A stretch of DNA of 64,000 nt, from NCBI RefSeq assembly GCF_000313565.1, contig NZ_HE578923.1, positions 495,445 to 559,444 of the forward strand, in the 5' to 3' direction. The notes beneath the pieces are model-generated. The model was not told the origin of the DNA. It ran no database searches and worked only from the letters and a program-made list of their open reading frames with translations. Positions 2,427-31,200 of this stretch are shown piece by piece. The position numbers and the translations under genes were made by a program. The stretch is from Dielma fastidiosa. Lineage in GTDB: Bacteria > Bacillota_I > Bacilli_A > Erysipelotrichales > Erysipelotrichaceae. The stretch's first letter is position 1, and each line of letters begins with the position of its first letter.

Positions 2427-3730
2427 TGGCGGAGCTGAAGCTGATGAAGCAGGAGCTGAGCGCATCAACGCAGAATCAGGTAAGCAGCCTGTCAACGGTT
2501 TTGTCTGATTCGCAGAAGACCTTTATGGAGCTTCAAAATATGCGGCTTCAGGAGCTGAATCAATCAATGAGTTCTCGTCAGGATGTTTTAGCGGCCAATA
2601 TTAATACGCTGATTAAGCAGATGGATGAGCGGATGCTGAAGGTCAATGAATTAAATACTGCCAACAATGAGATGGTACGCCGTCAGCTGTTTGAAACGAG
2701 CAGCCAGCTTGAGGAAAAGGTGAATGTGCTGACCCGTCAAAATGAAGAAAAGTTGGAACAGATGCGTACAACACTGGAACAGAAAATTACGGAAATGCAG
2801 GCGGACAACGGCAAGCGTTTGGAAGAAATGCGGGTTACGGTTGATGAAAAGCTGCAGGATACGCTTGAAAAGCGTATTTCTAAATCATTTCAGCTTGTGT
2901 CTGAGCGTTTGGAACAGGTTTATAAGGGACTTGGTGAGATGCAGACGCTGGCTGCCGGTGTCGGTGATTTGAAAAAAGTGCTTGGCAATGTGAAAACCCG
3001 TGGTATTTTAGGTGAGATTCAATTGGGAGCCATTTTGAAAGAAATCTTGGCGCCTGAACAATTTGAAGAAAATGTCGCGACCAAAAAGGGCAGCAAGAAT
3101 GTTGTTGAGTTTGCGATTAAAATGCCTGCTGATAATGATCGCTTTGTTTATCTGCCAATTGATTCAAAGTTTCCAAGTGAACCTTATGTAAAGCTGCTGG
3201 ATGCCTATGATACCGGCGATAAGGAACAGATTAATGCGGCGGGGAAGCTGTTGGATACAGCGATTAAACAGAATGCTAAGGATATCCGAGATAAGTATAT
3301 TGATGCCCCGAATACAACAGATTTTGCAATCATGTTCCTGCCATTTGAGGGCTTGTACGCGGAGGTTGTGCGCCGTGGGCTGATTGAAGTGCTGCAGCGT
3401 GACTATAAAATCAACATTGCCGGACCTACAACGATGGCGGCCTTATTAAATTCATTGCAGATGGGCTTTAAAACACTGGCTATCCAAAAGCGTTCCAGTG
3501 AGGTTTGGGATGTACTGGGAGCCGTTAAGACAGAATTTGAAAAATTTGGCGATGTTCTGTCGAATACTCAAAGCAAGCTTGATCTGGCACAGAAGGAGCT
3601 TGATAAATTGGTGGGTGTACGCACGCGTCAAATTCAAAAACGACTCAGTTCAGTGACCTCACTGGATGAATCGGCTTCAGCGCAGATGATTGAGAATACA
3701 ATGGCTTTTGCCGAGGAAAGTGAAGAATAA
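2423..3730 (+). CDS. rmuC: DNA recombination protein RmuC, main frame
   Basis: The protein has a long N-terminal coiled coil (residues 1-190, rich in Gln, Glu and Lys) and then the conserved RmuC nuclease-like domain, recognisable by GNVKTRGILGEIQLG and by DFAIMFLPFEGLYAEV. RmuC is linked to limiting DNA rearrangements at inverted repeats. The ATG at 2423 has no ribosome binding site, whereas the upstream frame at 2328 has a strong one and supplies the missing membrane helix. The complete protein therefore probably begins at 2328 and crosses frames at the A7 run, unless the sequence has an indel error. Domain identity is secure; the start is not. Confidence 0.85.
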   Translation: MMAELKLMKQELSASTQNQVSSLSTVLSDSQKTFMELQNMRLQELNQSMSSRQDVLAANINTLIKQMDERMLKVNELNTANNEMVRRQLFETSSQLEEKVNVLTRQNEEKLEQMRTTLEQKITEMQADNGKRLEEMRVTVDEKLQDTLEKRISKSFQLVSERLEQVYKGLGEMQTLAAGVGDLKKVLGNVKTRGILGEIQLGAILKEILAPEQFEENVATKKGSKNVVEFAIKMPADNDRFVYLPIDSKFPSEPYVKLLDAYDTGDKEQINAAGKLLDTAIKQNAKDIRDKYIDAPNTTDFAIMFLPFEGLYAEVVRRGLIEVLQRDYKINIAGPTTMAALLNSLQMGFKTLAIQKRSSEVWDVLGAVKTEFEKFGDVLSNTQSKLDLAQKELDKLVGVRTRQIQKRLSSVTSLDESASAQMIENTMAFAEESEE

Positions 3731-3802
3731 AAATGGGCATTGTGAATGCAAGCAATGCTTAGATAGCTTATACTTAAGGTAAGGAAAAAGGAGAAATGCG
3801 AT

Positions 3803-4090
3803 ATGGTATTTAATAAATTAATTAATGGTGTGCAGATTAGCGCCAATGAGGAAATGAGTGATCAGGATTGCCGCAATTACATTGAATGGGCCAGAAAGAA
3901 GAATCCCGGTCATGTCATTGAATCAATGAATCTTGAATTTGATGGTGAGGATGTCGGTATCGAATATAAAATTGCACCCGTGCCTTTTGAAAAGATTCGC
4001 CGCATTACCGGTTATTTGGTAGGCACACTGGATCGCTTTAATGATGCCAAGGCAGCAGAGGAGCACGACCGCGTTAAGCATACAATTTAA
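3803..4090 (+). CDS. Small protein resembling anaerobic ribonucleotide reductase (NrdD-like)
   Basis: A 95-residue soluble protein with a GGAG-type ribosome binding site. Its C-terminal part (RITGYLVGTLDRFNDAK..E..DRVKH) strongly resembles a block near the end of class III ribonucleotide reductases (NrdD), but the radical-glycine and cysteine regions are absent and there are no partner nrd genes. It may be a stand-alone regulatory or decayed piece of that family. It is separated from rmuC by about 70 bases and followed by a bidirectional terminator. Function is unknown. Confidence 0.6.
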   Translation: MVFNKLINGVQISANEEMSDQDCRNYIEWARKKNPGHVIESMNLEFDGEDVGIEYKIAPVPFEKIRRITGYLVGTLDRFNDAKAAEEHDRVKHTI

Positions 4091-4098
4091 GGGGAAAG

Positions 4099-4142
4099 AA
4101 AAATGCGCAGATCAGCGATTAGGACTTGATGTGCGCATTTTT
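4099..4142. terminator. Bidirectional terminator between converging genes
   Basis: AAAAATGCGCA at 4099-4109 pairs with TGCGCATTTTT at 4132-4142. The A and T tracts let it serve both the plus-strand gene ending at 4090 and the minus-strand gene ending at 4154. Confidence 0.8.
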
Positions 4143-4153
4143 ATATTCAGTTA

Positions 4154-4819
4154 TTATTTTTGGCATTGCTTAATAAAGCTCTTAAACAGCCTTAGCTGAT
4201 CAGGCTCATGCGTTAATGCTTCAGGATGCCACTGAACAGCTAGTATGTTATCGGCTTCAATAGCTTCAATGTAGCCCTCGCTGCTGAAAGCAACGGCTTT
4301 TAAGCCATCACCCAATCGATCAATCACCTGATGATGCAAAGAATTGACCTGTGTGCTTTCATTTAAGATTGAGGCTAGCTGACTGTCCTTAACAATCTTA
4401 ACTTCATGAGTTAAAACATGACGGTCTGCTTTTTGGCTGTGGTTGGGAATGTCTTGAATCAGTGTACCGCCAAAAGCTACATTTAATACTTGCAGGCCCC
4501 GGCAGATTCCTAATATTGGTTTGTGCTGCTGCATAAACGCTTGAATAAGGTTTAAGTCAAGTGTGTCAATTTCATCAAAATAATCCGTCACTGTAGGATC
4601 AGGCAGCTGATGATAGAGCGCGGGGTTTAAATCAGCGCCGCCAGGCAGCAATAAGCCATCACATGTTAAAGCGGCTTGTTTGGCGTCCATTAACGGAAAG
4701 ATGGGAACGCCAAGGGCATCGATCTTATCCAGCATATATAAATAATCAGTATTCGCGTAATGATAGGTATAATCCTTGTCTTTCATGCAGCGTACCGCCA
4801 CAGCAATTTTTGTTTTCAT
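4154..4819 (-). CDS. Gamma-glutamyl-gamma-aminobutyrate hydrolase family protein (peptidase C26)
   Basis: A class I glutamine-amidotransferase-fold hydrolase of 221 residues, the usual size for the PuuD-type family that cleaves gamma-glutamyl amides. The nucleophile is Cys106 in PILGICRGLQVLN, and the His-Glu pair sits in LAVQWHPEA near the C-terminus. The glycine-rich LLLPGGADLNP segment, which forms the oxyanion site, is present. The gene has its own ribosome binding site (AGGTGA) and stands alone, convergent with the upstream gene. No polyamine pathway genes lie nearby, so the substrate is open. Confidence 0.85.
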   Translation of the reverse strand: MKTKIAVAVRCMKDKDYTYHYANTDYLYMLDKIDALGVPIFPLMDAKQAALTCDGLLLPGGADLNPALYHQLPDPTVTDYFDEIDTLDLNLIQAFMQQHKPILGICRGLQVLNVAFGGTLIQDIPNHSQKADRHVLTHEVKIVKDSQLASILNESTQVNSLHHQVIDRLGDGLKAVAFSSEGYIEAIEADNILAVQWHPEALTHEPDQLRLFKSFIKQCQK

Positions 4820-29564: not shown

Positions 29565-30839
29565 ATGGCTGAGGAAATAGTTATCAGTAACAAGAATAAG
29601 ATCAGAGTAGGAAGATTGATCAGAATCTATCAAAAGGAAATGGGGATTACTTTATTTGATCTGATCGAAAATGTTTGTTCAAGGCAGGTAGCGACTAATT
29701 TTAATAAGGATATTCCCGCTAAGAATGATGAATTTTATTTAGGTGCGTTGGCTAAATTAGGTTTTAATTATAATTACCGGCATGATATGGATGACTATAT
29801 TTTAAACCAATGCAGGCTGTTAAGAGATGCAGTTGAATGGTATGATACGAAAATGATGGAGAAAATCTGTTATGAGACGATTAAAAGGTTAGAGCCATAT
29901 CGGAAATATATCATTGAGTATGAGTACATCAGAGCGTTTGAAATGATTTATAGGTATCACTTTATAAGTATCAATGTCGAGAAAGAAATCGATCATTTTG
30001 TTAATACGATGAAATATTTGAGTCAAGATATAGTTGATGTTTTGACAGATATCATTTTTAAGTATTGCTTCAAATTTTATGGCTTTTTTGAAGGTTCAAA
30101 ATACTTCGATAAATCAAATGAAATTTTTAAACTTTTGGATTTATCACATTCTAATTATAGTGTAAATCAGTTGAACTATGCCGTATATTTATTATGCTTA
30201 AAGTATCATTTTGATTGCTTAGAAATATTGAGTAAAATTGAACACGAATATTCCAGTAAACATAATTATAACGGACTTCTTAATGTTTACATCAGAATAT
30301 TTTGGCTAATAGGGAATATACAAGAAAAATCAATTGTAAAATATGAAGAAAAATTTAATCGCCTTGTTGAAACATGTGAAGGACCAATTAACTCTAATTT
30401 GGTCATGAAATGTATGTTTAATTTAGCAATAAGATATTTTGAAGGTGGGGATTATATAACATCTAAAAAGTATTTTCTAAAAACTTTACATGATGAAAAT
30501 TTTTATGTTCAAAGTGCAATATGTTTAAAATATATAATTTTCAATGAAAATGATTTTAGTTTTGATTTTAAACTTAAACCTTTAGATGAATGTGCTGTCA
30601 TCACTGATAGAGAAAAAGTGTTTTATAGTTATTATAATCTAAAGAGTAGTGTAGTTAATATAAAAGAATTGGTCAATTATATTGATTCATTTGTTTTTCC
30701 TGCTTTAGGTTCACATGATTCCTTTTATTACATTGTTTTTATAAATGAAATCAAAAGTTTGATGGAGAAAGTAGAGAAAAACAACAAAAGTTGCAGAAGA
30801 AAGTTAATGAGAGTTTTAGATAAATTTAGGAATATGTAA
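29565..30839 (+). CDS. RRNPP-like peptide-responsive transcriptional regulator (HTH plus TPR)
   Basis: A 424-residue protein. Residues 12-65 form an XRE-type helix-turn-helix (VGRLIRIYQKEMGITLFDLIENV...). The rest is all-helical with TPR-like repeats, the plan of Rgg, PlcR, PrgX and NprR. These receptors bind a short imported peptide made from a neighbouring precursor gene. Such a gene is found 95 bases downstream. The gene is clearly AT-richer than its surroundings, suggesting transfer. AGAAAGGTG precedes the ATG by about 8 bases. Family assignment is by architecture, so moderately sure. Confidence 0.78.
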   Translation: MAEEIVISNKNKIRVGRLIRIYQKEMGITLFDLIENVCSRQVATNFNKDIPAKNDEFYLGALAKLGFNYNYRHDMDDYILNQCRLLRDAVEWYDTKMMEKICYETIKRLEPYRKYIIEYEYIRAFEMIYRYHFISINVEKEIDHFVNTMKYLSQDIVDVLTDIIFKYCFKFYGFFEGSKYFDKSNEIFKLLDLSHSNYSVNQLNYAVYLLCLKYHFDCLEILSKIEHEYSSKHNYNGLLNVYIRIFWLIGNIQEKSIVKYEEKFNRLVETCEGPINSNLVMKCMFNLAIRYFEGGDYITSKKYFLKTLHDENFYVQSAICLKYIIFNENDFSFDFKLKPLDECAVITDREKVFYSYYNLKSSVVNIKELVNYIDSFVFPALGSHDSFYYIVFINEIKSLMEKVEKNNKSCRRKLMRVLDKFRNM

Positions 30840-30883
30840 TAAAAAGAACTTGAAATGTACAAATTCGGACTAATATTCCTAAA
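30825..30883. promoter_or_regulatory. 11-bp inverted repeat upstream of the peptide promoter
   Basis: TTTAGGAATAT (30825-30835) and ATATTCCTAAA (30873-30883) are perfect inverted copies 37 bases apart. The right arm ends one base before the -35 box of the peptide gene. It may be a regulator operator, or a hairpin at the end of the regulator transcript. Confidence 0.5.
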
Positions 30884-30884
30884 A

Positions 30885-30914
30885 TTCACAAAAATTTTTA
30901 AGTTGTGTTATTCT
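30885..30914 (+). promoter_or_regulatory. Candidate promoter of the peptide gene
   Basis: TTCACA (30885-30890), an 18-base spacer and TATTCT (30909-30914). The -10 is imperfect, as expected for an activated promoter. Confidence 0.5.
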
Positions 30915-30934
30915 ATTCCACGAGAGGTGATAGA

Positions 30935-31060
30935 ATGAAATTATTAAAGGTACTTTTAGTTGCAGGTATTATGTTCTCTGGAATCGTTACTCCGCCAACT
31001 CCAGGTGATGATGACCCTATTCCATATTGTTATGGTAGTGATTGCGTTAGTCTAAATTAA
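30935..31060 (+). CDS. Putative secreted signalling peptide precursor, 41 aa
   Basis: A short frame with a good ribosome binding site (GAGAGGTGAT, about 6 bases before ATG). It encodes a Sec-type signal (MKLLKVLLVAGIMFSG) and then a Pro/Asp-rich linker and a C-terminus with two cysteines (YCYGSDCVSLN). Size, signal and position just downstream of an RRNPP-like receptor match Phr, PapR and SHP-type pheromone precursors. The mature peptide would be a C-terminal fragment, perhaps disulfide-linked. This role is inferred; a small lipid- or membrane-targeted peptide of other function is possible. Confidence 0.65.
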   Translation: MKLLKVLLVAGIMFSGIVTPPTPGDDDPIPYCYGSDCVSLN

Positions 31061-31177: not shown

Positions 31178-31200
31178 GAGGGCAATCGCCCTTTTCTTTT
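31178..31200 (+). terminator. Terminator downstream of the peptide gene
   Basis: GGGC (31180-31183) and GCCC (31188-31191) with flanking A-T pairs, followed by TTTTCTTTT. Confidence 0.65.

Follow-up and report, generated by a model that had tools for sequence, protein, structure and literature searches.

Most of what is known about peptide quorum sensing through RRNPP receptors comes from Bacilli and Clostridia and concerns linear peptides. Rap-Phr and NprR-NprX consist of nine-TPR receptors with Sec-exported propeptides, and the Phr and NprX signals are both linear. The gene pair described here lies within a 64,000-nucleotide stretch of Dielma fastidiosa DNA (the window; Table 1). As in NprR, a receptor of about 420 aa combines an HTH with superhelical repeats; as in both systems, it adjoins a small exported (here predicted) precursor with the signal at its C-terminus, and these systems provide the best fold matches of the window and Holdemania models. 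The pair differs from them in having no family-level sequence match, in belonging to the Erysipelotrichaceae and in a signal with a recurrent cysteine pair. Streptococcal Rgg-SHP and ComR-XIP share with it the placing of an HTH-TPR regulator beside a tiny peptide gene, as well as paralogous pairs and orphan receptors. However, Rgg and ComR have five TPRs (PMC12700828), and SHPs are short, hydrophobic and exported by PptAB, whereas here a longer Sec-like leader precedes a Cys-x-x-Pro-[DEG]-Cys tail. The nearest that the literature offered to a disulfide pheromone with an RRNPP receptor is the cysteine-bearing streptococcal SHPgp_sali_3, which begins with a cysteine and was detected after reduction and alkylation (PMC12445099). 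The Agr autoinducing peptide is also a small secreted ring peptide serving as a density signal, as the present peptide would be, but it is a thiolactone made by AgrB and read by a membrane histidine kinase, neither of which is recognised beside the window pair: the peptide has no NCBIfam match, and inspection of the neighbouring ORFs revealed no AgrB-/AgrC-like pair.

We consider it likely that the pair is an RRNPP-type quorum-sensing module of an undescribed Erysipelotrichaceae subfamily, working through the circuit proposed below. The main texts of an RRNPP survey (PMC10075063) and a structural phylogeny (PMC12700828) do not name the Erysipelotrichaceae, and searches of open-access full text found neither a report linking RRNPP systems to this family nor a disulfide pheromone sensed through a receptor of RRNPP type. 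The comparison with the Rgg, NprR, PlcR, Rap, ComR and AimR subfamilies was made through family models, and the window receptor has no Pfam or NCBIfam match; a place outside these subfamilies is provisional. An undescribed RRNPP-type subfamily with a recurrent cysteine-tailed signal is credible. With at least 23 receptor-linked cysteine-tailed precursors in 11 Erysipelotrichaceae genera, several of the precursors coming from cultured gut commensals (Holdemania), it would be a testable communication system.

Table 1. Features of the window pair and positions of second-class peptides in other receptor neighbourhoods
Feature	Position	Strand	Description	Basis
Receptor ORF	29565..30839	+	424 aa; ATG preceded by GAAAGGTGA	ORF list, sequence
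Domains of cytosolic receptor/regulator		+	predicted N-terminal HTH, residues ~9-64; predicted helical-hairpin (TPR-like) superhelix, residues ~72-424	AlphaFold model
Inverted repeat (11 bp), left arm	30825..30835	+	TTTAGGAATAT; inside the receptor's last codons	
Inverted repeat (11 bp), right arm	30873..30883	+	ATATTCCTAAA; beside -35-like box; candidate operator	
Promoter-like site	30885..30914	+	TTCACA-18-TATTCT, TG before -10	total of such sites in the region not above chance
Ribosome-binding site of peptide gene	30923..30930	+	AGAGGTGA	sequence
Peptide precursor	30935 (ATG)..31060 (stop end)	+	41 aa, uncalled; putative propheromone	ORF with ribosome-binding site; same position and tail in relatives
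Cysteine tail	31028..31057	+	CYGSDCVSLN (C32, C37); putative core of mature signal	alignment of relatives, peptide list
Terminator-like stem-loop, then T-rich tail	31178..31193	+	downstream of peptide	consensus match only
Second-class peptides	L054 1118-1321; L061 1066-1275; L067 785-1024; L086 3669-3872; L090 1767-2000			

Receptor family and predicted fold

The sequence-only reading had described the regulator as an HTH followed by helical repeats. This architecture is found in the AlphaFold model and in the Pfam matches of relatives (TPR_2, TPR_8, TPR_1, HTH_3 and HTH_31), but not in the scan of the window protein itself, which matches no Pfam model, HTH and TPR included, and no NCBIfam model. 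The window receptor, modelled with AlphaFold2 from five sequences, is predicted with moderate confidence (pLDDT 70.5) to form an HTH and then a helical-hairpin superhelix; the H. filiformis receptor model has a pLDDT of 79.8. Compared with solved structures over residues 72-424, the window model matches Rap with competence factor, RapF, RapI, a phage Rap and apo NprR at Z 13.9-15.8, with unrelated proteins reaching 13.5. Rap and NprR take the first ten places for the Holdemania model (Z 17.0-21.0), where unrelated TPR proteins score at most 16.1. Foldseek E-values are weak for the window model (best 0.026, NprR-NprX at the top) and reach 7.6e-4 for the Holdemania model, with pLS20 Rap-Phr*. 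In fold, the predicted models best match RRNPP pheromone receptors (Rap, NprR). A cysteine of the HTH, C38 (window 29676-29678) within 'VCS' or 'ICS', is kept in most members of the receptor family, orphans included.

Used as sole query, the window protein retrieved homologues of 20-28% identity in 14 of 273 family genomes, its own counted. A profile built from 19 of these homologues detected relatives in 67 of the 273 genomes and 33 of 60 genera, and when 394 genomes sampled from the whole class were searched, the matches beyond Erysipelotrichaceae were confined to one other family. Named relatives include Holdemania filiformis, H. massiliensis, Holdemania sp. Marseille-P2844 and one uncultured Erysipelotrichaceae. 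A first scan of the contig collection with the window protein gave no relatives, and whole-genome profile searches were required.

In a receptor tree made by a quick method and containing many long branches, the window receptor sits among relatives without a detectable peptide (nearest L018-L021, L031 and L059). Because it groups with peptide-less relatives, the own-genome paralogue L018 included, the receptor homologues are a mixture of paired and orphan forms. Orphan receptors occur in known RRNPP families too. On the tree, receptors that have a C-tail partner are clustered, yet several gains or losses are needed to account for their distribution. The genome of the window encodes two more receptor paralogues (L018 5078-6343 and L113 2273-3490), and no peptide gene was detectable next to either. 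In two genomes of one genus, three receptor genes form an array of about 5 kb (L028 1673-6741 and L024 1625-6067), where C-x4-C and C-x3-C peptides adjoin different members. Tandem receptor relatives from a different family of the class (L117, L118, L121) lie near small hydrophobic ORFs free of cysteine.

Pairing of receptors with cysteine-tailed small ORFs

The 41-residue frame proposed earlier, 95 bp downstream of the regulator on the same strand and with a ribosome-binding site, was reproduced at its coordinates; its tail had been given as Cys-x5-Cys, and the actual spacing is C-x4-C (CYGSDC). The window peptide, MKLLKVLLVAGIMFSGIVTPPTPGDDDPIPYCYGSDCVSLN, matches no Pfam or NCBIfam model. 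It runs from a basic start and hydrophobic core (maximum 10-residue Kyte-Doolittle value 2.6) through a Pro/Asp-rich linker to the tail, the loop of which is without the Pro present in most other C-x4-C tails. There is no clear signal-peptidase site, and several relatives have an SxA-like one (VSAEE, ISAEG).

RRNPP systems have been defined by five criteria, including a propeptide of 10-100 aa, Sec export, a receptor of 250-500 aa, tetratricopeptide repeats and adjoining genes (PMC10075063). The window precursor and receptor both fall inside these size ranges, the two genes are directly adjoining in an arrangement that recurs in relatives, and repeats are represented by the Pfam TPRs of relatives and the Rap/NprR model matches. 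Leaders were scored by hydrophobicity and charge, and Sec export is thus a prediction; with this qualification, the locus appears to agree with those criteria that lend themselves to testing.

The sequence-only reading had proposed a search for homologous receptor-peptide pairs in related genomes, and pairs of the same type were found in 11 genera. Scanning the neighbourhoods of 85 distinct receptors, 549 kb in total and mostly receptor-centred, identified 23 different small ORFs of secreted type that end in a CxxxC/CxxxxC tail (genera g1, g16, g18, g20, g30, g38, g44, g45, g53, g54 and g56). All lie 0-423 bp from a receptor, while the receptor neighbourhood (450 bp) makes up 18% of the non-receptor DNA in this set. 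Among the 73 receptors with enough sequence, 14 are followed within 260 bp by an ORF with Shine-Dalgarno site (SD), leader and C-tail; the corresponding number for unrelated genes is 0 of 182 (Fisher P 9e-9), two raw control matches having been set aside that themselves adjoin receptors L033 and L072. The other 59 have no such ORF within that distance, and some of them have one elsewhere or in another orientation. Spacing from receptor to peptide is 91-134 bp in the downstream C-x4-C pairs and typically 91-165 bp when C-x4-C and C-x3-C ORFs are taken together. A single genome (G173) has three C-x4-C pairs.

These data bear on the possibility that the window frame arose by chance behind a receptor without a partner, and that the pairs are real only in Holdemania and elsewhere. 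The nearest relatives of the window receptor are orphans and the comparison covers no second genome of the window's genus, both of which would suit such a reading. However, when the downstream region was simulated 10,000 times with a first-order Markov model, an ORF with SD and hydrophobic leader arose in 2.0% and one that also carried the C-tail in four (0.04%, a probability of 0.0004). The filter of the 549-kb scan found 66 secreted-type ORFs, none with the tail, in 400 kb of control DNA drawn from three genomes, the window's genome supplying half. As the window pair also shares distance and tail layout with the other pairs, we regard a chance ORF as barely plausible. Homologues without an adjacent small secreted frame, named at the outset as a finding that would speak against the pair, are indeed many, and include the nearest relatives and the two own-genome paralogues; to that extent the finding tells against it. 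The original proposal is partly supported: its core, an RRNPP-like receptor with an adjacent secreted peptide whose cysteines hint at a loop, draws strong comparative support from the pairs in 11 genera, from C-tail peptides that all lie beside receptors, from selection in Holdemania and from the RRNPP-like fold.

Selection was analysed in the Holdemania peptides. Three Holdemania species have all retained the frame, the ribosome site, the -10 box and the stop, and a fourth relative has an in-frame indel. With dN/dS in the mature part at about 0.09-0.16, and with the mature part changing less than the whole including the leader, the sequence comparison shows strong purifying selection on the mature part at the protein level, and the peptide is a real gene, at least in Holdemania.

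The C-x4-C peptides follow a consensus C-x-x-P-[DEG]-C: of the 14, 11 have Pro two positions ahead of their second Cys and 13 have D, E or G immediately ahead of it. Tails include ..GCSSPDCMFQ (H. filiformis), ..GCTAPDCMFG, ..ICPGPGCDPS, ..ICPQPLCKQL, ..RCGYPECDFGSY, ..RCSFPECGFGG and ..FCSSPGCWVIA, and ..PCDSPECLDID and ..PCNKPGCNEA belong to peptides upstream of their receptors. A second class (tails ..CSPECWGV, ..CTPDCWL, ..CPRSCW) comprises peptides of 60-79 aa that end in CxxxC, often CxxxCW, and are often on the strand opposite the receptor; their extra Cys hairpin is an internal pair spanning an acidic stretch, for example CxxxxEEGxxExxC. At L022 two near-identical peptides without cysteine (..AAISPSRIHIKV and ..AAISHSRIHIKV) lie 116-500 bp downstream of the receptor (3494-4735, minus strand), and possibly represent linear signals in duplicate.

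The small gene could instead encode a secreted effector, a bacteriocin or other antimicrobial Cys-loop peptide, with the HTH-TPR protein regulating it on a different cue. Regulators of RRNPP type often control neighbouring antimicrobial genes (PMC10075063), and the longer Cys-rich peptides with an additional hairpin in some relatives would suit an effector. The C-x4-C products, however, are very short (mature part about 10-30 aa), mostly acidic or neutral, and highly diversified between systems while their position beside the receptor is fixed; moreover, no immunity or transporter gene is evident in the ORFs adjoining the window pair or the H. filiformis pair. An effector is unlikely on this evidence.

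Proposed circuit and chemistry of the signal

In our preferred reading, a quorum-sensing module, the 41-aa precursor would leave the cell by the Sec pathway and be processed into a C-terminal peptide of about ten residues around CYGSDCVSLN. The mature peptide, in which a disulfide may close a ring of six residues, would build up with population density, be re-imported by an oligopeptide permease and bind to the neighbouring receptor in its TPR groove. Binding would alter the contact of the receptor HTH with the peptide's own promoter (30885), giving autoinduction, and with further targets. The own genome encodes four SBP_bac_5 oligopeptide-binding proteins, from which re-import is possible. 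The neighbourhood of the window pair contains no identifiable additional regulatory target.

The signal perhaps carries its cysteine pair as a disulfide ring. Between the two cysteines Pro/Gly and an acidic residue or Gly are prevalent, which fits a tight six-residue loop; a free dithiol or metal binding is a conceivable alternative state of the tail. That mature signals in general are disulfide-closed six-residue rings, C-x-x-P-[DEG]-C plus 0-5 residues, read by cytosolic RRNPP-type receptors, we put forward only tentatively, as a proposal with the odds somewhat against it. If true, such rings would represent a new chemical class of intracellularly read pheromone, and the ring state could couple cell density to redox state in the gut. 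The family would also pose the puzzle of how its receptors could read a cysteine-ring signal when the cytosol is reducing.

Enzymatic modification is another possibility, the peptide being a RiPP signal or product whose cysteines carry a thioether, lactone or similar linkage instead of forming a plain disulfide or dithiol. Cysteines are common modification sites, and enzymes cyclise the RaS-RiPPs under Rgg control (PMC12445099). The ORFs near the window and H. filiformis pairs were inspected, only partly by family-model scans and limited to the pair surroundings such that a distant enzyme is possible; they disclosed no radical SAM or other cyclising enzyme, and a modified peptide of this kind seems highly improbable.

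Base composition, gene context and promoter region

The segment was described from the start as AT-richer than its flanks, and this is borne out: GC is 0.25-0.32 against 0.39-0.48 in most flanking 500-bp bins. The transfer proposed as the cause is not supported. Holdemania orthologues keep an equally low GC (27-29% amid flanks of 44-48%) in one conserved gene context, and so low GC is no sign of recent horizontal transfer. This makes low GC look like a trait shared by most paired systems. Paired receptors have 26-32% GC in the genomes measured, whereas orphans such as L018 and L031 match their own genome (about 40%). Examples of AT-rich paired receptors in surroundings of 44-48% GC are the window receptor (29565-30839) and L134 (5001-6311). 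A phage or plasmid origin was rejected, as tblastn against 50,697 phage and 72,556 plasmid records returned 0 matches; a search of viral contigs with a Holdemania-type query also gave 0. Conserved cargo genes were likewise dismissed: the window pair is flanked by an SDF symporter and U32 peptidases, and the H. filiformis pair by a sigma factor upstream and a transglycosylase-like ORF downstream.

The 11-bp inverted repeat noted beside the small gene's promoter is present, with both arms located and the right arm stopping 1 base short of the -35-like TTCACA. With 9-bp arms and exact spacing, the full repeat occurs once in the 3.6-Mb genome. A conserved operator sequence was considered and set aside, the repeat being unique to the window and no motif being common to the pairs. 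The Holdemania pairs have in common TGTAwCAA upstream of TATAAT instead of the window repeat, and L069 carries a 14-bp repeat with a layout similar to it.
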